Assembly: GCA_950295325.1 (NCBI GenBank)
Contig: OX485805.1
Location: forward strand, 19,331,501 to 19,395,500
From: Polytrichum commune
Lineage: Eukaryota > Streptophyta > Polytrichopsida > Polytrichales > Polytrichaceae
Length of the DNA stretch: 64,000 nt
Reading direction: 5' to 3'
Positions 3,934 through 61,913 of this stretch are shown here, piece by piece (the stretch's first letter is position 1; every line of letters starts with the position of its first letter). Made by a program: the position numbers and the translations under genes. The notes beneath the pieces were generated by a model, which saw only the letters and a list, made by a program, of their open reading frames with translations, had not been told where the DNA came from and did no database searches.

Positions 3934-6900
3934 CTAATACCACATTACATCAGAAAAATATAAGGAAATCATGAGCCCTTTGTGTCTGACGGCGGCAGAA
4001 CTGTTCCGGATGGAAAAGATTAAAGTGCTTCGCCGAACAATAACTGTCTGTTCCCACACAGTGAATGTCTAGAAATAATAGAATAGATCTGACTGAGATT
4101 TTGTTGACAACTTGTTGAAACTCAATACATATCTAAATTCATCATAGCAGTATGTTTGATAAAAGTCTTCTTTTGACACGTGTGCCATGAGATAAGCTCA
4201 CCTGATAAAATACATGCATGGCCACCTCCAGTTTGTCCAGCACTGCATATTTCACCTGTCACAAAACCTTTTCACTTCAAAACATAATCTGGAGGATTCT
4301 TGTGCTGACACTTCTGACCAATATATTATACGAGCACACAAATATCCTTGAAGCAGTTGGAGTTGTCACAAGTTCTCATCATGGGTTTCCATATACTACA
4401 ATGGTGAAGTAGGACAGGAAATTGGTCAAATCGGGAAGCCCCTCACTGTGGCTGAATATCAATCATCTGTCAGGCAACTCATGACAGACTCCCTAAAGCA
4501 CAAATTAATGTTAAGTTTTATGCAATTGCTTTGTAAGGTACCAGGTGAGCATGCCTCGGCAAGGTGTGGACCTTTTGTAGGCACTTCCAACTCTGGAGAC
4601 ATTTCGGGCCATTGGGTCAGCTTAGGTATTGTCTCATCCAGTTAGCAATTCTGAATCAAAAAGACTGTCATCTCAAGTTTCAGAGTTGAGTAGAGATGCG
4701 AAGGTTGTAGGAGATCAAAGTGAAGATTCTCTTCCTCTTAAAATGATCACAGAGGCCCTTCCAATTGTATATTCACTATTAAACCTAGAGTAGTGTCTAT
4801 ATTGTGAGTAGTCATCCAATCTCCATGTGACATGTGTCTTTTTGGTGTCCATTTTTCACAGAAGCCTTGCCATTATTCACTCAAATAAGCGTCCAATTAA
4901 GAGTGACCAGATAAGGCCCATATACCTTGTTACTCATGTCATCAACTAACACGAGGTTGCAAAGACATGTCCACAGCAGAGACACATTGGTGAACCATTT
5001 GAAGACATTCAGGATTACAGAGTGGCTTTACCTGGAGACCAGGTCCAGGCGTGCCTACGCCCATAAGATCAGCAAGGCTTTCCGGTTGTAAAACATTGAG
5101 GAGGTCAAACTCGTTCACAGAACGGCCATTAAATATGACATCGACACCACCAGCTCCGACATCAAACATGAAGAGAGCAGTGCGGCCATTGAAAGTAGCC
5201 GACACATGGGGCACATTCTCAATGAATTCCATGGTCTGAAACACAGAAGGGATTGAAATAAAGAGAATTGCTGAGAATCACTTAAGAGGATAAAGAAGGT
5301 TTTTCAACAGGAATACGCATAAATGTACAGATGTAAGTATATGTAAGAGCTCATGTACCCACATGCCATTGCAAAGCTTGACCGCACAATGGCCTGTACA
5401 TTACAGGATCAAAGAGTGAGAGTGTGCCCTCTCCATGCGCCATCTGTCAGAACAAAAGATGACAAGCAGTTAATCCTGTCAAGAAAAGATTCAACTTAGT
5501 GCACTCTTAGATGATGTGAGTAATTGCAGTCCAGACTTACCTCGACCACACAGTGACAGAAGATGTCATAACCGCAGATACCTGCCAATGCTGGTGATGC
5601 TCCATTCTCAAGTCTTGCAAGAGGCACCTTCACATCCCATATAAGTAAAGTTCTGAACACATGGACATGATTTCAAACATATACCTCCTGAGCGAGCTGA
5701 TCTATCTTGATAAAATGGAGGATAAATGATGGCTGGGCACTAATTCTTTGCACCAAATTTGCCAATCATAGTATAGATAATCTTCCAAAGGCAAGAAACA
5801 CACCACAAAAGAGGTTTGCAATGGTGAGGAGCTCCTTGCAGTCAAATAAACCAAACATAGTAATGAAGTGACTGAAGTCAGGCTAAAGAATGTCAATTGC
5901 ACGTGACAACACCTATTTTGTTGCATAATTAAAAGATATCTGACCTCCATAAACATTGGATTTTGAATTCGTAATGGCCCCAGCTGAAAGCTATCTGCTC
6001 GGCAGTACTGCGATTTTGCCTAAAGCACACATCAACAGCTCTTTCAAATGAAATTTCCATTCTCGAGATTGACTTCATATTGAACACTCAGATTGAGATT
6101 GACATTAATAGCATAATTTGCACATGTTGTATTTTCTCCATGAGCCCTAGGGGTAAACTCAAAATCGAAAGTCAGAGTCACAACAACTCAAAACTTGGTG
6201 AAACAAGGGACATTGAGGACAAATAAAATATGGACTCGAACCCCATCAGTCCTACCTTACCCTCGGCACATGTGAGGTGCACTTCTCCAAATGCGTTCAG
6301 TCCAAGCTCCCTTGCCTGCACAGCTACCATCGTTTAATTTAATAAATTCCAGGATATGGAGCATCCACTTGACCACTTGCAGTACATGCTGGAAACAAGT
6401 GATCTATGTGCTAACTGTGCATAGTCAAGAATCCTAAGTGCAGGTCATTGCAGGTTTACTGAAGGTCCCTGACGTGGCAAATAAACAGAATTCAGAACAT
6501 ACAAGAACATTTTCCATTCTGACTCGCTCTTTGTTCCTTGCCATAGCAATACCGCTATTGCATCATGTGGTGTTAAGATATGCGACCCTATTATGGACAC
6601 TTGCAATTCCAGGGATATGTTTGGCTATTGGATTGGCTTGGGAGTTTATTTATCCAGTTCGCAATTGTGAATAACACAGATTCTCAGTTCAAGTTCAAAA
6701 TCAGTGCTGAGATGCATAACTTATAATAGGTCAAAGTGAAGATTCTCTTTCTCTTGAAGTGGTCATATAGGCACTCACAATTGCGCCTACCATTGAACCT
6801 AGAATGGCTGATATAATTGAGCACATAGTCCAATCTCATTGTAACATGTGTCTTTGTAGTGTCTATACTTAACCACAAACCTCGTCATATACCATACCAT

Positions 6901-23510: not shown

Positions 23511-25036
23511 CATTGAAAGGGTCTTTGTTGAGTACGATATGTGTTAGGTGCCTAATGGTGATTTGGGAGAAGGATTCCATTAATTTATGGATATTACGGG
23601 TGGTTAACGCTGAGCTCTTTGAGGTATTTGGTGGTTTGGGTACGAATAGTTCTTCTAATTCTTGTAGTAATAATGATTGGTGGTTGCACTTCCCATCCAT
23701 GTTGGGTTAGAAGTGGTGGGAGTATGGTATATTTATCAAGTTTATGTGCTATGGCAACCATGGGGAATTTGTCATTACAATAGGTGAATTATAGTATTTG
23801 AACTTTTAGGTTGGGGTACTTGGGGGTGAAGGGTGGTTTGGCTCTGGGCATTGTTGCACTTAGAATACACAATATATTTGAGTGTAGCTTGGCACGGCAT
23901 TTGCATAACGAAAGGATGCATGTGCATGGGAGTAGCCAAGAGCATGCAAATGGTGTTGTCAAGGGTGTGGTTATTAAATTTGCCAATGTTTATTAGTGTG
24001 TAACAATGTGTCGTAGAGTGGGCTAGTAGTATTTTGGCTAGGGTTTATATTGCTTTGTTATGGCGGTTTGTACGTAAGTTGTTTATGTGCTTATTCTAAT
24101 AGTAGGATTGTAAGTGGAGACATATGTTGTTTTGTCTACAGTCCACCCTCTATAAATGTTACACCTATAAGTGTTAACCCTCTCTAAATGTTAACTTTCT
24201 TCTACTCCTCACATATTGCACACTATAAATGTTAAACGTGTTAACTGTTAACAAAATGGTACTCCCTTCTTTGTAAATTTGACTCTATAAATGTTAACGA
24301 ATGAAATACAACCATAATATGGATGATAAAAACCATTATAATAAGGTGGAACCCATTCCATCTTATAGTGACTTGCAATCTAGTTTTGGTACCATTAGAA
24401 GGTACATGGAATCACGTTCATGTGATGTGTCCAAGTATGTGGGTTTGTTGGTGCAGATTGAGAAATATTTGCAAGTTGTGCATGCAAATGAATCTCACCA
24501 AAGAACCATTGATTCATACTTCACCCGTGATTTGTAAACTTGATATTGAATAAAGTTTTGATTGGGTTTGCAATTTTATGAATGGTATTCTCTCACAAGG
24601 ACTCTTCACAATTGCTTATATTTATAAATGTTAAGATTTGTATATTGCTCGAAAAAGTAATTTTATAATTGTTAATTGTTAACACCTCTATAAATGTTAA
24701 CTTTGATCCACTCCCGAGGGTTAACATTTATAGAGGGTAGACTGTAGTTGTGCATAAGTTGTAGAGTGAGTTCTACGGTATTGGGATGATGAATGTCTAA
24801 CATTCAAGGTTTAGAAGTAGGTAGATGTTGTCAAGGTAGAGATAAACATGTTTGTGGTGAGTAGTTTAGTGTGTTTGATTGCGAGTAATAATGTGTATAA
24901 TGTAGCTTTGAGAATGTTTGGGTATCCAAGTAGTTTGGCTTCAATGTTTGTATTCAATGGTCCATTGAATACACTAGAACTTGCGATATTGCCTTTGCCA
25001 ACACTATCTAGAGGGGTAAACGCACCGTTCATGTAA
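23497..25036 (-). mobile_element. Degenerate LINE 3' part (copy 3), split by a pogo-like element
   Basis: The minus strand reads an RNase H stretch with LGYPNILKATLYTLLLAIK (24811-25036). After an interruption come SWLLPCTCILSLCKCRAKLH (23789-23986) and a terminal HIVLNKDPFNGKSQ (23497-23700). These align in order with the ORF of the copy at 41477-43035. Several stops and shifts are present. The interruption is the element at 24139-24744. Confidence 0.7.
24139..24744 (+). mobile_element. Pogo/Tigger-like DNA transposon, deletion derivative
   Basis: 606 bp bounded by CAGTC..GACTG ends. The terminal inverted repeats read CAGTCCACCCTCTATAAATG on the left and CAGTCTACCCTCTATAAATG when the right end is reverse-complemented. 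A TA duplication lies on both sides (24137-24138, 24745-24746). Both features are typical of the Tc1/mariner-pogo superfamily. A 78-codon frame (24301-24537) ending QRTIDSYFTRDL resembles the C-terminal tail of pogo/jerky-type transposases. The catalytic domain is deleted. Confidence 0.8.
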
Positions 25037-46900: not shown

Positions 46901-47547
46901 TATATAGTATATATATATATTTTCCCCTGCCCTGTCTGTAGTGGATAAAAGTTTGAGGCTAAACCACATTGCAATGACTTATTGGCTCTGCCTTTTGAGA
47001 TGCGCCAAAGTTTGGTCTTGGTCAAACAACTAACTAGAATTGGCCACATGTGGAGGATAATCATAGGGCAAAACACTCTTCCAACCATCCACTTATGGTA
47101 CATGAATATGATCAACCCCAACCTTTCAAAGTAGTTGAAAGGTACTACAAAATGTGCACAATTAGAAAATAACCTAATTGAATGGGTCGTTTAATTGCTT
47201 GTGAGCAAGATAATAGTCCCGAACAATTATGTCCTTGCCACATGTGGTTTCCCTAAGTCGCACTAAGTGTCAACCCCATGTACCCGGGAAGTATCACAAA
47301 GGAAGGATGGTGTCAACTACCGAAAGGACAAGTAGATGACGTCACCTACCAATCGTAGAAATAGTATAAGAAAAGGGTGACCTAAGGAGTATTAGATACC
47401 AGATGAGAACGTGGTAGTACTAGGAAAGAAGGGAACCTGGTAGAGAGCATGATTCGGTAGGCAATTTTGGTAGCAAGTACTACCAAGAATGTGATAGTAC
47501 CAGTAGTATAGTAAAATAATAGAACCAAGAGTGGATAGAGTTTAGTT
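43998..47547. other. Non-coding body of the 11-kb insertion
   Basis: No coding region recognised. Holds a CACTA-like terminal motif (44750-44785), many CCGG-bearing stretches (about 44950-46500), the inverted-repeat element at 45909-46309 and a TA-rich run (about 46895-46920). Confidence 0.5.
45909..46309. mobile_element. 401-bp MITE with perfect 21-bp terminal inverted repeats
   Basis: AAGGTAGAAATACCATAACC plus one C at the left is exactly reverse-complemented at 46289-46309. The inner sequence is non-coding. Flanks next to GGTAG..CTACC are TAA and TTA, hinting at a PIF/Harbinger-type target, but no clean direct duplication is seen. Confidence 0.8.
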
Positions 47548-47637
47548 GAGGGAAGCTATCTTATGAGCGATGAGCAGTGAGCGGTGAGCGGTGAGCAGTA
47601 ACACATGAGCAATGAGCAATAATATATGAGCAATGAA
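47548..47637. repeat. MULE left end with eight TGAGC subterminal repeats
   Basis: TGAGC followed by two purines recurs eight times within ~75 bp of the left terminus. The right end (reverse complement of 54990-55065) has at least four TGAGC/TGAGT units in the same spacing. Likely transposase recognition repeats (inference). Confidence 0.65.
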
Positions 47638-47761
47638 TCCAAATTTAGTAAAGACACACGGGTTTAGGGTACACAACCATAATTTTGACAAATTAATTGC
47701 ATATTTTCAATTGTAAATTGCCAATATTTTATATGAAGCACACGTGAAAGGGCCCTATTAC

Positions 47762-48535
47762 CATGGATCATTTAAAACACTTTCAATCTATTGCTGATTT
47801 TTATTATAATAATCCAAACCAATACATGTTATTTATTGATATCCTTATACATGTAGTTACAACCAACACTTGCACAACTACTCACATTCCACAACACCAG
47901 CAAGTTCAAGTAGGTGCATAACTTCATTATATGTATATGTAGGTGCCATAATTGTGAGCCACTCAAACCGCTCATGGGTTGAGTTAAGGCCCACAATCTA
48001 CAAAAGCAAGGAAATTAGATATTAGAAATAGTCAATATGTAGGTAGCTACTAGGTTTTGAGACATCCGCATGTGGATGCAAGTTGTATAAGAGACTAGTA
48101 TTAGGTCTGGATCAACCCGGGTTCGAATCCGGTTGGTTACATTGACTGGTGCTATCCCAAATCGAGCTAGTGATAAAGTAAGAATAATCTATAGGCGGAT
48201 ACCAAGAAGAGGATACTACGCGGATGTGCATAGAATCTTCTCGATTATTTGTTATTTTTAGAAACTTGTTATTATTTATCCGTGTGAATCAATCAAACCG
48301 TTCACGGTTGGGTCATAGTCTAAATGGAAATGAAGTTACTGAATCATTTGAAATACTTTCAGTCCATTGTTAATTTTTATTATAATAATCCAAACCAAAA
48401 CATGTCATTTATTGACATTCAATTATATGTTGCTTAATAGAACACTTGCAATACTACACACATTCTACAATACCAGCAAGTTCAAGTAGTCGCATGACCT
48501 CATTATATGTATATGTAGGTGCATGAATGAATTTG
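47762..48535. repeat. ~200-bp direct duplication near the MULE left end
   Basis: 47762-47958 and 48335-48535 share TTTTTATTATAATAATCCAA, CCAGCAAGTTCAAGTAG and TTATATGTATATGTAGGTG, ~575 bp apart. The right-hand copy includes the C-terminal codons of the transposase. Confidence 0.75.
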
Positions 48536-50780
48536 TCACTCTCGTAGTCTACCTTGCACAAAAATCTAAACACATAATAAAGATGTTTACAATACACCCA
48601 TTTTCCTTTCTTTTCCAATGCATGAGAGGACATTTTCGTGAAATCCGGGCATGTGCAATGTAGGATGTCGCCAATTATGACATGGTAGGTGATATCCTGC
48701 TTGGAGACAATGCTGATTATCACTCCAAAGCCCGGATATAGAATGGCAGTGACCCCAACCACATAATAACCTTCCATGAGTCTAGCGCTCTCCCATTTAT
48801 TTTTGTGATCCGCCAGCGGTATTGTTGGATTATGACGCACTGTCTTCCCAAACCTGAATGTAGGGTGCGCGTTCAAATTTGGTGGCATACAAAAATGCGA
48901 GCGAGGGATGGGGAGAATTGCGATTGTTGAAAGCCTATGACGAGGGAACAATGTCTCCCTCTGCTATAGTTGAAATCCAACATCTTCAAGTGCCAAAACT
49001 TCCTCTCTCGATAGATTGGTATCTATCTTCACCGGCCACGTGTTGGGTACTATAGGCCAATCCAACACATATTTCTTCTTACTGCCACTCACACAACGCT
49101 TGATGTCGTCAGGGCAAAACCAAAATTCATACTCCATATTGTTGGGAGAGCGAAATTCCTTCCTGAGCCCTTTGTATGTTGGAGCAGGTGTGCCATGTTT
49201 CCCAGTCCTGACTTTGGCATTGCACATAGTCCATGTAATGGCTTGCAGTGCCCAACATCGTTTGGCTGAGTTGGGTGGCAATCTTGCAATATGCCACTTA
49301 GAAGCAAGACAATCAGTCTCTAACACGGATGTAGTATGAGTCACACCATGAATTGCAGAACTCAACGATTCCTCTATGCGTTGACGAGTTGCTCGGGTGT
49401 TGGGACGAGGAATGGAATAGTTCACTTTGTCGGATCGATGAGAGTCACAATCAACACCCGGTGGTAGGTTGACTTTGCGTTTGGTGGAACCAAAAAGCTC
49501 TGACCCTTCCAATGCACAATCTCTAGTGTTAATGTTTTTTGCCCCTGAATAAGACTTCATGGCATCAGCCAACATTTTTGGATCTCCACACCTGGCAACC
49601 GCTTTAAGTTTCAAGGATGCCGAATCAGGACATTTACCATCAGATCTCCCTTTCAACTATGTCCGGTAATTTACAATTTGCATGAAGGCACGAATCATGT
49701 CGTCCACTGTAGCTTCATATAAATAAGTCATCTTATTGCGGATTGTTGGAGCCATTTGTTGTGAAAGTCTCTGCAAGATTGCATATTGGCATTTTCGCAC
49801 GTTCTTCTATTGTCATATTCTATGGACAACACACAAATATGAGGATAAGAAAAATATAAGATATATATAACAATGGAAGAAAAATGAATGACATTGAATA
49901 ATGAATTTTGATATGTACGTACAAATAGCATATGACTACCCCATTGTCTTTGACGAAAGTGTCAAAAACCCAACCACTCTGAAAGGCCAAGGATGCCTTC
50001 TTCTGAGGCAGCTCCGGATGACAACTACCAACAACGAATCACATGATATTTAGTCTCGGCGTCGTTCATTGTTTTTGCGTCTTTGTAATCCTTGCATATT
50101 TGCTTGTGTTAAAACTGCAAGGATGGTTTGATATACTTTTGGGTCACCTTATCCAAACTCGCAAACCAATGGAAAAGACATGTACGCTCACGTGCAACCA
50201 TGGGTAGACTTGGGTCACCATCCCCATAAATCGTCCTCACCTCATTCCAATTAATTTGAGCACTATCAACCATAAACCGTTTGAAATTTACGTTTGGTAC
50301 ACTATTTTTTGCCATGACAGAATTCAAATTCTACCAAAAGAAAATTTGTGTTGCACCATCTTCAGATTGCATGTCACAACACGCAATGGTTAACACTTTA
50401 CAATATCGATTGTCGTACACATGACAAGTCATTGTCGTCCAGTGTTTCAAACGTTTAACATGATCAAACATAATTCATGAATTCTTCATATCCCCCCGAC
50501 TTGCATCTTCTTCACAAGTTCCACACCACTACTTGGAAGGTTTACAGACATGTTGAAAACAAACACTTTATCTTTTGATTGCCCTGGGAACCGACTACCA
50601 TGAACGAACTTAAAAGCAGAGTGGTTTTTAAGTGCCATAATACTATCCATAGGTCCCATTCCACTATGCAAAAAACGCTTTGAATACTATATTGTGCATG
50701 CCGAGAGTACGATTCCAACGGTATATAGCATGAACAAAATGATTTTGTTTTGCATGTTTTAGAGCCAAAAAACAATTAGA
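48454..50780 (-). pseudogene. MULE transposase with SWIM zinc finger, disrupted
   Basis: Read on the minus strand. Around 50671-50486 is FKFVHGSRFPGQSKDKVFVFNMSVNLPSS. Next is the catalytic region near 50450-50330 (CKVLTIACCDMQSED) and FMVDSAQINWNEVRTIYGDGDPSLPM (50109-50327). A middle part (48964-49656) follows, and the end (48454-48951) carries the SWIM finger, with CTC then YCKH (C-x-C..C-x-H). This order matches plant Mutator-like transposases, which cut and paste the element at its terminal repeats. An in-frame TAG (after QIFFW) and further breaks near 49700-50100 and 48955 inactivate it, unless some are introns. Confidence 0.8.
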
Positions 50781-51031
50781 GCATCTTAGATTCTTCTAAA
50801 ATCTTCAAAAAATGAAGATTTTATGAAGGAAATCTAACCATATTAATTTCAGTAGACTTTAACGATTTATGTAAAATTGATATCATCTCCAAATATTCTG
50901 AAATTTTTTGAAGTAAATGGCAAGGCTATAATCTATGCACTTGATTTTTTGTGGAAATAAATTAGAATATTTGAAAAAGTTATAGCTCAAATAAAAAACA
51001 ACTCAAATCAAGGTGCATTTCTCTTCTAAAT

Positions 51032-51591
51032 GGGTAGCCGTTAACGGCCACCCTTTCTATAATGCCAATTTTTGTGTTCTAGTTTAGGACGGCCGTCAAC
51101 GGCCACCCTTTGTATGATGCTATCTTCTCTGTTCTAGTTTAGGACAGCCGTTAACGACCACCCTTCTTGGGTTTCATTCTTCATTTAATAACATAATTTC
51201 TTTGAAATAAAATCACATATATACATATATTTCTTATGTCAGTTCCATCTAAAAGTGTGGTCGTTAACGGCCATCCTTGGTTGCATCTCATATTTTTCAG
51301 TATATGTGTTTCTTTCTTCATGTATACACCCATTTCCGTCATTTTTTGTCCTTCAACAAGGGTAGCCGTTAACGGCCACCTTTATTGAAATTTCATATTC
51401 TTTTCTATATATGTTTATTTCTTCATATATACACTCATTTCTTTCATTTTTTTTCTTTCAACAAGGGTGGCCATTAACGACCACCGTTATTGAAATTTCA
51501 GATTATTTTCTATATGTGTTTATTTCTTCATTTATACATTCATTTTCATAATGTTTTATCCTCCAACAAGGATGGCCGTTAACGGCCATCC
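51032..51591. repeat. Array of seven 22-bp palindromes centred on GTTAAC
   Basis: Units start at 51032, 51087, 51142, 51255, 51360, 51465 and 51570. The core is GGCCGTTAACGGCC with small variations; the unit at 51570 is a perfect 22-bp palindrome. Spacing is 55, 55, 113, 105, 105, 105 bp, so the palindromes ride on two tandem repeat units. The array ends ~170 bp before the ATG at 51764. Confidence 0.9.
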
Positions 51592-51763
51592 TTATTGAAA
51601 TTTCAAATTCTTTTGCATATGTTGTTTTCCCTTATGTATACTCTCACTTTCATAAATATTTTTGCATATTATTTTAGTTTGCATATGTGATTTCTTTCAT
51701 ATGTATATATTTATTTTAATTTGTTCTTGTATTTTATATGGGTGATATTTTTGTGCTTTAGAT

Positions 51764-54389
51764 ATGGAAGTTGTACATCTTTCTGAAGATCAATTGGAGT
51801 TGCGATTGCATGCATTTTTCAAGAAAGAAACTGTCAACACATCTTCCCGTCTTGAACGGTTGAGGTATCAACCAAGGATGAGAATCCTGAGATGATTCAA
51901 AAAAAACTTTGGATGTTAGCAATTTTGGCAATGAATACATCTATGAAGATTAGGTGGCTTGAGAGATGAAACAGTTTACCTTCTCTTCGTGAGGCTCTCA
52001 AGTTTCCGAAACCAAAATTCAATAATATAAAGTTTTCTAAGTGGCTTCATAAAGCTACTTGGTGGGCTCAAGTGATAATTTTTTGTCTATGTTTTTTATT
52101 TTATTTTAACATTTTTTTAATCATTCAATTTTTCTAATCTTTATTTTGTATTTGGCAGTTGGCTATTGAGACCGAGAAGCTCTTTGATGCTACTGTGGCT
52201 GATATGCATGTGTCCATTAAGTATCTTCCAGATGGTATGGATCCTTTGCCCACTATTTTTTATTATGTGGAGGCAATGCGCATATCATTGTGGGATACTT
52301 CATTTTTTCATGAATTCAGTGTAGATAAGGAAGTTCATAAAAATCATAACATTGACACACAACTCAATTTCAATCCATCCATGCGAAGGGTGTTTTATAG
52401 GTACTTCAAATATGTTCTATTTCCTGCTAAAGCCATTTCCAAATTTCCCACTTTTTTGGATAATTATTTGGATATCGAAAGTGAAGAATTCATGTTCAGA
52501 GAGGGGATCATGAAATCTTCGGATCCTATGCATTTTAAAAATGTAGGTGGTATTTGGATTTTCTTCTTAAATCACCTCTCACTTTTGATATTGCCCTTTG
52601 AGTTTCTATTCAACCCGCCCTCAAGGGTGCAACTAAAATTGCTCCCTTCATAATGGATGAGGATATAGCCAAGATGCCAAAAAAAAGTCTAAGCCTAAAA
52701 GACCAATCCTCTTAATTCATGATAGCGATGACGATGCTCCAATTTAAAGTAGTCTCAACAACCTTGTAGTTACTGAACCTTCTTTTTCAAATCTAGAAGC
52801 AATGTTTCATACTTGAAAGCGGCTGAAAAAAACCCCTTCTCCTACCTTCAATATGCCTCCCAAGCTTAGAGGTATGATGGATATCTTGCCTTCTTTACTT
52901 GCAAATCATACATTTTCGGATTTAATCTTGAATGATTCTTTTGTGAGGATTATCGAGGATAAGAAGCAAACATGTACATTTTGTGCACCATATCACGACA
53001 TTGTGGTTTATTTCGTGCACCAAAGGTGAGTTCATTTTATTTTATAGTTTTTAATTTATTTCATGTTTTATAAAGTTTCATTTATGTTTTATCACCTTAT
53101 TTCATTGTTTGCTTTTAATTGTCGTCTTCATTAATGAATTGTAATATTTATATTTTATCTTTGTAGGTTGGTGAAGGTAGATAATTTTTTTTTTATGGCC
53201 AATTGCAAAAGAAACCTGTTGTGGACCTCATTATTGCAGATTACCCAGATGGTCTTCGGGTTCCAAGAGTCTCGGATCCGCCATCTCAAATTCTCCCTTG
53301 GAATGCCAACATTCCAAGTTTTCTCAACATATTGATGGCATTTGGTCTTACCTATCTTCATGATGATGGAACATTTTTTTGTAGGATTCTTCAAGAACTA
53401 TAAGTTCAAGATCAAGGATGAGTGGATTATCATTAATTGCTTGCACTTGGCAAATCTTATGAATCCGTCCAAAAATGTAAGTAGCAATTATAGCTTTGAA
53501 GTTCAAGGCTTTGTTATTGGTTCGATCATTTTTTATTTCCCATTGCGAGGCAACCTCAAGAACTTCTGATGACTATGGATCCTTCAATCTAGAGGTTGAT
53601 TTAGCCACAGATGACGTTCTCTTCAACTCTATTACTACGGAAACTCAATTATGTAGACAAAGAGATGGCAAGCCATGGAGGGGTGCAAAGGAGAAGTCTG
53701 AAGTTTTAATGAAGTTATTTGTTCATGGTTTCAGTCATGTAGGCGGTATTGTGGCAGACATGACTGCTTCTATATGTATTGTATTTTACAGTATCCAATT
53801 ATTAGTTCATATGTTTTTTAATTCATACTTCAATGTTCGTATTTTCCTTATTAATATTGTGCTTCATCCCGGTTCTTCTATTAGAGCGGCTCATTCATCC
53901 AATCGTCATATTCTAGCATTAGAAAGTGATGCCGAACTCTTTGATGAGGTACTAAAGCCTCTTCAAATACCTACAACTGATATCTCAAACGATGGTATGG
54001 ACTTTGATGATGATACTCCAATAGAAAACGCCGCACTACTTATCTTATACGAGTGAGTATTTTCCTTGTTTTTTTTTCAACAACTTCAGTTACAAATTCT
54101 AGATTTTGTATTCAAATTTGTTGTTACATATTCTAATACATGGTTTGTTGTTTGCAGTTGGATGATTCCATCGCCGATACAAACCTCGTCATTTTATCGG
54201 CACCGTGGATTATTGAGAAGCCCCTCTCTTAGTCCTCATAGCCTCCCTGTGTATGCTGAGGCTTTAGCTGAAGCTTATGCTAATGCTTCATCTATTTCAT
54301 CTTCAATTTCACCTTCACCTCGTACATATTACGATACTAGAGTATGTGCTAATTTTGAACTCAGTGCATCTGAGTCTGTCGATATTTAA
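51764..54389 (+). CDS. MULE-borne gene with beta-class DNA methyltransferase-like C-terminus
   Basis: Multi-exon by inspection. The first exon starts at 51764 (MEVVHLSEDQLELRLHAFFK) and ends at a donor near 51864. Later coding pieces are about 51985-52068 (KFSKWLHKATWWAQ), 52159-52540 (LAIETEKLFDATVADMHVS), 52850-53025 (MMDILPSLLANH), 53195-53560 and 53560-54056. Near 53215 is KPVVDLIIADYPDGL, resembling motif IV of amino-methyltransferases. Further on come GKPWRGAKEKSEVLMKLFVH and GGIVADMTAS, then GSSIRAAHSSNRHILALESD and ELFDEVLKP. These fit the AdoMet-binding motif I region, with the acidic residue after strand 2. Motif IV before motif I is the beta-class order. ~130 nt between ADMTAS and GSSIR may be an intron with a damaged acceptor. 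A stop near 51990 lies in or beside an intron. Activity uncertain. Confidence 0.5.
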
Positions 54390-55065
54390 GTTTATATCCA
54401 TGATTTGATTTTTGATTTTTGATATTTGATTTCCAAGAACTTCAACAATTTAAACCTACTACCCGATTTATATTTATAATCCACTTTTGTTGTTCTTTAT
54501 GTTTTGGACTTCGTAAATGTCACCCTCATGATGGTGTTATGATGTATTCAAATTTTACATTGATGTGTATTCTAGTGAGACATTCTAACATGCTACACTT
54601 GTTTTCAACATGAGTTTGCTTATACATTGTCTCCAATTACATTATTATTATCTCAACAGTTGAATGTATATTAGTTCATCTTTAGTACAAAATTGTTATA
54701 GCAACATTCTCATTTGTTGTTCACTTGGACTATAGACCCTTACATGTAATTCCATAGTCATAGGCCCCCAACCGATTTACAAACCATAACCGGGAAAAAA
54801 TTGAAGGCTCACAGGTTCATGCTCACATGCTCACATACTAGCAACCCCGAGTCGTGTACATATTGGTTTTTTTCATTGCTCACTACTTGCAATCTAGCAT
54901 TCATATTGTTTGTCCTCCCCAATCTTCTTATTATTGAATCCTAAAAAATTATTTCTTTAGGCCACGGTTATAGGACACTAGGGGTCCTATTACCAAATAT
55001 TTTGTTTTCTTCACCGCTCAAAAATTACCACTCATCGCTCACTGCTCACAAGATAGCACTCCCTG
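54057..55065. other. 3' region of the + strand MULE gene and right MULE end
   Basis: A Ser-rich tail frame (to 54389, ending ESVDI) may be the last exon of the methyltransferase-like gene. The rest is AT-rich, with scattered TGAGC repeats (as GCTCA on the + strand) toward the terminus. Confidence 0.5.
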
Positions 55066-55125
55066 AGTTTAGTTAGCATGTTGGTTCTACTAGAGGTTAG
55101 CATAAAACATTCTTTAACACTCTCT

Positions 55126-55915
55126 TTCATGTGGCATCCCTGGCAACTCTTTAGGGAGTATATCCTAATGATTTATAATAAAATTAAAAAAAAATCCTCA
55201 ACAACTATTGGTTCTTTGCAATTTGGTTCAGATTCATTTGAAACCTTACAAATATCAATTGCAAAGACATCTTGTTTCTTTCTTAAAAATATTTTCCACT
55301 GTGTAGCAGAAATAAAGCACTTTAGGTTGAGCTCTATTACCTTTGATCTTGAAAGGCTTGCCATTTATAAGGCTATCATGAACCTATCCTTGTTTGCAAG
55401 CAATCACATGTATCCACAATTTTGAGCCATGACATTCCCAATATGACATTGTATTGACTGGAGATTGACTCCATGTCCAAACGTCAAAGTTTGCGATGGT
55501 TTGCGTTCCTTGCAATACCACATGGACTTTCGATAATTGACATTCAATTGGGCTCGACTCACCATTGGATAAGAAACCTTGCAAGGTTCTATCTTGGTGA
55601 CCGGCAATCCTAACTTTGATGCAAACTTTGACAACATAAAGTTATGGGTTGACCTTAAATCAATCAACATAAAAGTCGATTAATTACCAATGGTCCCTTG
55701 AACGTAGAGCTATAGGTTCACTCACTACCTGCTCCTCACAAACTTCAACAAACACACAAACCACCTCTTTGCCCTTAAACATGATTGGAATTTCTACCTC
55801 CACCACCAAAGCCGTTGATAGTTTAGGGCATTTGCTAGCTAGTCACAAGCAATCATTTCTCGATGTTCTATTTGGTCTTTGTAGCTAAGTTTTTTGCCTT
55901 TCAGTCATTGTTTTG
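55126..55915 (-). pseudogene. Gypsy gag end, protease and spacer
   Basis: The minus frame 55670-55404 has MLIDLRSTHNFMLSKFASKL, the Ty3 protease region in which the usual D-S-G-A active-site box reads D-L-R-S; the catalytic motif is thus damaged. Downstream (55364-55173) follows the protease-RT linker, then DILPKELPGMPHER at the border of the 11-kb insertion. Stops and a T-run frameshift are present. Confidence 0.7.
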
Positions 55916-56266
55916 TAATGCAAGTAGAATGTTATTCACAAGTATCTGTGAGATTAACTCTGCACTGTAATGAGAATTTTATTATCCTCAATTCAAACAC
56001 CTTACAGAACTTCTACCTCTAGATGTTCCTATGCGTGGTGGATCTTATACATAGCCATATCTAGACTTAGCCTATCTGATACATTGTGCACACAAAAGAT
56101 AAACTATTGTATTCCTATTTCTGTATATAAAGAATTGCTTCTATCAATCTGTCTAGATGCTTCGGCACTAGAATGTTCTACATGAATTCTACCTTGTTGG
56201 AATACTACGTTTCTAGAATGTTCATTAGTAGGATGAATGTAACTGGATGAACGTATACATCCAGTA
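55916..56266 (-). repeat. Copia downstream LTR
   Basis: 351 bp. Differs from the other LTR by four substitutions and one 1-bp indel, by direct comparison. Confidence 0.92.
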
Positions 56267-61561: not shown

Positions 61562-61913
61562 TAATGCAAGTAGAATGTTATTCACAAGTATCTGTGAGAT
61601 TAACTCTGCACTGTAATGAGAAATTTTATTATCCTCAATTCAAACACCTTACAGAACTTCTACCTCTAGATGTTCCTACGCCTGGTGGATCTTATACATA
61701 GCCATATCTAGACTTAGCCTATCTGATACATTGTGCACACAAAAGATAAACTATTGTATTCCTATTTCTGTATATAAAGAATTGCTTCTATCAATCTGTC
61801 TAGATGCTTCGGCACTAGAATGTTCTACATGAATTCTACCTTGCTGGAATACTACGTTTCTAGAATGTTCATTAGTAGGATGAATGTAACTGGATGAACG
61901 TATACATCCAATA
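61562..61913 (-). repeat. Copia upstream LTR
   Basis: 352 bp; the partner of 55916-56266. On the minus strand it precedes gag. Confidence 0.92.

Follow-up and report, generated by a model that had tools for sequence, protein, structure and literature searches.

A two-gene Mutator-like element in Polytrichum commune

The 64,000-nucleotide stretch of Polytrichum commune DNA analysed here (the window; positions 19,331,501 to 19,395,500 of contig OX485805.1, in a genome of 407.8 Mb and 64 contigs) contains a 7.5-kb Mutator-like element (MULE) at 47548-55065. Two divergent genes flank a tandem palindrome array in this element: a transposase gene on the - strand (gene 1) and a multi-exon gene on the + strand (gene 2), the C-terminal domain of which resembles beta-class DNA methyltransferases. 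The element sits between identical 9-bp target site duplications (TSDs), AGTTTAGTT, at 47539-47547 and 55066-55074, the right one matching the left exactly; the original prediction of a MULE with an intact 9-bp target repeat therefore holds, and the element coordinates are exact. The left terminal inverted repeat (TIR) GAGGGAAGCTATCTTATGAGC (47548-47568, + strand) is followed by a run of TGAGC-type subterminal repeats to 47636, and comparison of the two ends revealed the right TIR as the reverse complement CAGGGAGTGCTATCTTGTGAGC at 55044-55065 on the - strand. The paired ends GAGGGAAGCTATCTT / CAGGGAGTGCTATCTT, with subterminal repeats besides, are typical of MULEs, as is the TSD length (8-11 bp, usually 9), which is 9 bp in this copy and in the copies L015, L021 and L029+L022 described below. 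Compared to the 12.4-kb full-length relative L029+L022, the copy at 47548-55065 lacks ~3.0 kb at 50683/50684 and ~1.1 kb at 51877. Because of these losses, and because stops and frameshifts occur in both genes, it is a dead, internally deleted two-gene MULE.

Gene 2 is modelled with about eight exons in the longer copies. In the copy at 47548-55065 it starts with a first-exon remnant (51764-51877, MEVVHLSEDQ...), at the end of which exons and introns amounting to ~1.1 kb are lost, and continues directly into an exon remnant (51878-52071, ...ENPEM...KATWWAQ) with a GT donor at 52072. Next come one or more exons at 52159-53026 (LAIETEKLFD...VHQR), which comprise a charged linker interrupted by frameshifts and stops. 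The methyltransferase-like domain is encoded by the three exons E5 to E7. Exon E5 (53167-53476) has ADYPDG at the motif IV position, β-strand/helix blocks and DEW, and suffers an in-domain deletion and a frameshift. Exon E6 (53502-53775), with one frameshift, carries a segment resembling a target recognition domain, a motif X-like KPWRGAKEKSE and the first half of motif I, GGIVADMTAS, preceded by EKSEVLMKLFVHG. Exon E7 (53872-54052) provides the second half of motif I and motif II, (G)SSIRAA...ILALESDAELFDEVLKPL. The last exon (54158-54389) ends with a natural stop. All of these exons lie on the + strand, and the quoted motifs of the predicted multi-exon gene (VDLIIADYPDG, GGIVADMTAS, SSIRAA and ILALESD) were all found; in this copy, however, the gene is a pseudogene, broken by frameshifts, stops and the deletion between DDGTFF and FKNYKF, and deprived of ~1.1 kb of upstream exons. 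The splice acceptor before GSSIRAA is lost, and one intron persists as a 25-nt relic, compared to 108 nt in most copies.

Gene 1 is also broken. Its exon 2 remnant (48454-49818, - strand, bounds approximate) contains the SWIM-like motif CTCPDF...YCKH and has an open 455-residue counterpart in L029+L022. The exon 1 remnant (49923-50683, - strand) retains a 191-residue block, recognised by eye as DDE-like, with five stops; the initial 458 of the 712 compared residues are gone at 50683/50684, and the gene also contains a frameshift. Both exons are open in L029+L022, in frames of 794 and 455 codons. The predicted SWIM transposase is thus present as a CxC...CxH motif on the - strand, but the Pfam SWIM matches are below the cut-off both for this copy (E=0.21) and for the open relative (E=0.79), and the gene no longer reads through. 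Even the open 712- and 455-residue exons of L029+L022 gave no Pfam match to the MULE transposase domain (DDE, PF10551), and the D/D-CxxH spacing and the CxC...CxH motif were recognised by eye only; the two-exon transposase of L029+L022 may represent a family missing from Pfam. Close to its left end, the MULE carries the 3' part of the transposase gene a second time, as a 183-bp duplication (83% identity; 47764-47946 and 48340-48522) that other copies show too.

Both genes recur together in the genome

A genome search with 53600-54050 revealed 41 matches including the locus itself. Identity is 91% or more in 33 of them and, in 29 of the 33, extends over 414 or more of the 451 bases; the matches below 91% are at 80-89%. 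Twenty loci from among the best-scoring ones besides this one, picked by their match to gene 2, were examined over about 9 kb each, and three diverged copies (L031-L033) were added. Two loci, L010 on the unplaced 34.9-kb contig C53 (G000) and L011 at C2:19230300-19239300, are the same over 9 kb, which leaves 19 distinct loci; this pair is a duplicate or haplotype contig. Gene 2 of L010 holds an extra ~1.1 kb close to the position that corresponds to 52320, and a sequence there (near 4610) that resembles a MULE left end, CAGGAATGCTATCTTGTGAGCG, may point to a nested insertion.

Both ends, sequence of both genes and separate 9-bp TSDs were also found in three further copies, namely L015 (CATTACAAA), L021 (ATCTCACCC) and L029+L022 (CAACTAAGT), so that the genome search proposed for other MULEs with the two genes had a positive outcome. 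Since the same ends and sequence of both genes are found again at other loci, flanked there by different TSDs, the element is more than a chance juxtaposition, which supports gene 2 as a component of an element family, not a one-off capture. The right element end is present in 16 of the 20 loci and missing in L009-L012. L030+L027 lacks the left end, and a TSD was looked for there but not found. Transposase coding sequence precedes gene 2 in 14 of the 20 loci (13 of the 19 distinct ones), the stretches of L022 and L027 having been extended for this count. In L013, L014, L018, L020 and L024, the examined stretch stops in or shortly past the palindrome array, before the transposase region; in L023 (1-2907 of the oriented copy), neither array nor transposase was found in the 2.9 kb upstream of gene 2. 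The 1.1-kb gap at 51877 is common to the copy at 47548-55065, L009, L010/L011 and L021, and therefore marks a deleted subfamily; the segment is present in 15 of the 20 loci, and L015 could not be scored. The TSDs of the copy at 47548-55065 and of L021 indicate that copies truncated in gene 2 were mobilised, presumably in trans.

Scoring of the three methyltransferase exons showed them to be free of stops and frameshifts in seven of 24 sequences (the 20 loci, the three diverged copies and the copy at 47548-55065), all seven among the 20 loci: L014, L017, L018, L019, L022, L025 and L027. Most copies have GT-AG splice sites, while L017 is without the AG before E7 and L014 without the GT after E7.

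The C-terminal domain of gene 2 is a probable remote relative of beta-class DNA methyltransferases

Comparison with several libraries suggests that a beta-class N6-adenine/N4-cytosine DNA methyltransferase was very probably the ancestor of the C-terminal domain of gene 2. The searches as a whole are mixed, in that several weak ones agree and others gave no match. The Pfam profile PF01555 matched the copy at 47548-55065 (E=0.0039), the majority sequence of the genome copies (E=0.0022), P0002 (E=0.0045) and spliced P0018 (E=1.3e-4) but none of six shuffled controls; yet no sequence reached the curated cut-off of 26.7 bits, the best scoring 22.5. Against PHROGs, DNA methyltransferases were the top matches (E 1.2e-4, 1.1e-5 and 1.7e-5). 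A tblastn search of plasmids at E<=10 returned eight records, of which six are labelled DNA methyltransferase, one rmsM and one is unlabelled. Structural similarity search with Foldseek, using the low-confidence model 1, placed 14 of 15 PDB matches at E<=1e-3 among the beta-class DNA methyltransferases (M1.HpyAVI, M.BceJIV and CcrM), with an RNA methyltransferase as the remaining one. The lack of an S-adenosylmethionine (AdoMet)-dependent methyltransferase fold, which would have spoken against the original prediction, was thus not seen; however, the structural support for the fold is weak, as the models are of low confidence and a second aligner gave no clear answer.

The conserved motifs, assigned by alignment and by eye, follow the order IV - VIII - X - I - II, and the match spans 55-63 residues over X-I-II. 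Might this resemblance be due to chance? No single search is strong, and the initial placing of the exon junction was by eye; the score was 18.0 bits with X at the junction and 12.2 bits with an alternative. In contrast, the join is confirmed by GT-AG sites in most copies, independent libraries agree, and P0018, in which the junction is undamaged, scores better, though P0002 does not. We consider a chance resemblance highly improbable.

The catalytic loop differs from that of known enzymes in a consistent way. Alignment A10 has 70 rows, 57 of which extend across motif IV. In these 57, the successive positions are E or D in 55 (E in 44, D in 11), Y or F in 55, P in 54, D in 54 and G in all 57, so that the motif mostly reads [ED][YF]PDG, and (D/N/S)PP(Y/F/W) occurs in none. 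In motif I, the D is kept in 24 of 27 rows and the last G in 25 of 26, and the position of the first glycine is split between G (12 of 26) and S (13 of 26); in a group of relatives termed group B it reads DLTAGTG, and the ESD of motif II is kept in several relatives. With another sequence in place of DPPY in every one of the 57 rows, catalysis is doubtful. A comparable case is METTL14, an inactive pseudo-methyltransferase with EPPL at the place of the catalytic loop, which likewise combines a methyltransferase fold with an altered loop but belongs to the MT-A70 family and serves as the RNA partner of METTL3. Given that the altered motifs resemble those of such pseudo-methyltransferases, the simplest reading of gene 2 would be DNA or AdoMet binding without catalysis. 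The predicted beta-class methyltransferase accordingly stands as a related domain, carried by a MULE family and with motif IV ahead of motif I, but a working enzyme is not supported: DPPY is replaced throughout, the profile cut-offs are not reached and the copy at 47548-55065 is a pseudogene.

Alternatively, gene 2 might encode an amino-methyltransferase that is active despite its unorthodox [ED]YPDG loop; by methylating A or C, either in the palindrome or in the TIRs, it would mark the element. The retained D and last G of motif I in most rows and the ESD of motif II in several would fit such an enzyme, as would the palindromic array described below. The complete lack of DPP[YFW] at motif IV in the 57 rows and the inactivity of METTL14 with its EPPL point the other way, and we regard an active enzyme as unlikely.

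An exon absent from the copy at 47548-55065 (3960-4331 of the oriented L022 copy) encodes KMFMVWDGNHRLQAW, in which DGNHRLQAW looks ParB/Srx-like by eye. Such a ParB-like domain upstream found no support in Pfam, PHROGs or the PDB, and a search of phages gave one unannotated match (E=9).

Relatives outside the genome and selection on gene 2

Searches with the 255-residue domain revealed 22 related proteins (E 7e-49 to 1e-14), and a nine-row profile extended these to 202 relatives (protein clusters) at E<=0.01. None of the 120 relatives listed of the 202 contains a Pfam domain, and each is either unnamed or called 'hypothetical protein'; the source marks are jgi, ena, lgn, ncbi and src. The relatives inspected are fragments in which the introns are mostly read through. 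The read-through intron allows exons and intron to be compared within group B (12 of the 14 proteins of alignment A9, with P0048 and P0059 left out), where the exon identities are 85.7 and 83.8% versus 52.1% for the intron, and each of the 66 pairs shows a higher identity in both exons. The gene 2 protein was therefore under selection in the group-B lineages. Among the copies of the Polytrichum commune genome, variants shared by at least two of 20 sequences (including the copy at 47548-55065; L011 and L031-L033 left out) comprise 53 nonsynonymous or stop changes versus 15 synonymous ones, a neutral ratio without purifying signal, which indicates that these copies are mostly decaying. The majority sequences of two copy groups differ by 11 to 6 such changes (ratio of nonsynonymous to synonymous rates, pN/pS, 0.52), numbers too few to judge.

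These data bear on whether gene 2 is a host gene that was captured by the MULE and is carried as a passenger. Typical Pack-MULE fragments do not keep introns and all exons. Gene 2 retains both, all three methyltransferase exons are open in seven of the 20 loci, and the exons are strongly conserved among diverged relatives, all of which argue against a passenger. On the other hand, MULEs have a tendency to pick up pieces of host genes (PMC6446971), truncated copies were mobilised, the copies in this genome show no purifying signal, and the relatives from other sources may themselves be host genes. On balance, we find a captured passenger decidedly unlikely.

A variable palindrome array lies between the two genes

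Repeat analysis and self-comparison revealed a tandem array of 55- and 105-bp units at 51021-51655, between the divergent genes. The part common to both unit types is a palindrome centred on GGCCGTTAACGGCC, and a pattern search located seven GGNCGTTAACGNCC palindromes with 0-1 mismatches, starting at 51036, 51091, 51146, 51259, 51364, 51469 and 51574 (span 51036-51587). Across the 64-kb window, the palindrome occurs seven times in the element and once, with two mismatches, elsewhere, compared to a mean of 0.57 in shuffled sequences, none of 100 shuffles reaching eight. The array is present in 19 of the 20 loci with 5-33 sites (the counts for L020 and L024 are lower bounds, as the examined stretch ends inside the array), L023 having none. 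The consensus of 89 units from eight loci is a perfect 32-bp palindrome, AATAAGGGTGGCCGTTAACGGCCACCCTTATT. The array is thus a tandem motif in the non-coding DNA of the element whose copy number varies between copies, and it is a better candidate target than the element ends; the original prediction does not mention it.

Palindromic sites are typical of methyltransferase targets, and HpaI recognises GTTAAC; moreover, 13 of the 16 CpGs of 51020-51660 lie inside the palindromes. Both points would suit the active amino-methyltransferase considered above. Another possibility is that gene 2 encodes an accessory factor that aids the transposase without any link to silencing, in the manner of MURB of MuDR, with the array acting as promoter or enhancer. 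The joint movement of the two genes and their divergence round one control region are consistent with such a factor, and nothing specific counts against it; we nevertheless think this role improbable, to about the same degree as an active enzyme.

Elsewhere in the window, nine GTTAAC sites are clustered in 1.1 kb at 23603-24720, outside the MULE. Next to the element, 352-bp direct repeats (55916-56266 and 61562-61913; 98.6% identical), with TTTTG at both outer sides, probably belong to a long terminal repeat retrotransposon of about 6.0 kb, and an open frame at 55404-55679 (- strand; STFMLIDLRSTHNF...) resembles a Ty3-type retropepsin by eye.

A putative regulator of the region between the two genes

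Gene order, joint mobilisation, conservation among relatives, the motif change and the array with its copy-number variation are direct observations, and with gene 2 beside a variable palindrome array, the element may have a means of controlling its own silencing. We tentatively propose that gene 2 encodes a DNA-binding regulator with a methyltransferase fold that acts on the element's own control region, a mechanism that, taken as a whole, we hold to be quite possible but short of an even chance. The protein would retain a DNA-binding and possibly AdoMet-binding fold with an altered catalytic DPPY loop, and would bind the palindromes arrayed in the control region common to both divergent genes. 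Once bound, the control region might be kept open against host silencing, or both promoters might be regulated. This regulator is proposed because the anatomy resembles that of elements carrying VANC, with a protein of another kind; in our best reading, a VANC-like logic may have been reached with another kind of protein. A more far-reaching version appears rather doubtful: an old MULE lineage in several eukaryotic hosts, with its own beta-class DNA methyltransferase (or a DNA-reading shell of one) of prokaryotic origin and a cognate palindrome array in the shared promoter, which would write or read a host-foreign mark for self-marking and anti-silencing.

VANC of the Arabidopsis VANDAL MULEs binds tandem short motifs in non-coding DNA and removes methylation there (PMC5735166, PMC10398659). 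The element described here resembles VANDAL elements in its extra gene, its tandem short motif in non-coding DNA and the variable copy number of this motif (PMC5735166, PMC10398659), a likeness of logic only. There are also clear differences. As far as these accounts go, no relation to methyltransferases is described for VANC, whereas the domain of gene 2 is methyltransferase-related. The VANC motif is a 9-mer in one orientation, whereas the palindrome here reaches 32 bp, and anti-silencing was demonstrated for VANC, whereas we infer it for gene 2.

Similar to the beta-class methyltransferases (PF01555; M1.HpyAVI, CcrM and M.BceJIV), gene 2 shows the same motif order, the X-I-II match and the corresponding Foldseek neighbours; it differs from them in that DPPY is mostly [ED][YF]PD and in being a spliced eukaryotic transposon gene whose long N-terminal regions have no assigned fold. 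Methyltransferase genes have been reported in other transposable elements. Viral mariner elements encode a methyltransferase beside the transposase, but they belong to another superfamily, and the methyltransferase families given for them are Methyltransf_26 and C5-cytosine (PMC3627910). C5 cytosine methyltransferases were acquired by retrotransposons of dinoflagellates and charophytes, which likewise join a transposable element to a DNA methyltransferase-type gene, whereas the present case combines a DNA transposon with a relative of amino-methyltransferases (PMC5890265). No MULE with a methyltransferase-like gene appeared among the best-matching titles and abstract openings of the openly licensed literature, which does not by itself prove novelty, and the words 'methyltransferase' and 'accessory' are absent from the main text of a MULE survey (PMC6446971).

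VANC provides the precedent that extra MULE genes can defeat silencing. If the regulator proposed here is real, gene 2 would be a second solution to the same problem, built on a DNA methyltransferase fold and accompanied, within one element, by the array that it probably targets; the escape of transposons from silencing could then be tested in a new lineage. Amino-methyltransferase relatives would gain a eukaryotic family as well (202 protein clusters), in which the catalytic loop is changed in one consistent way.

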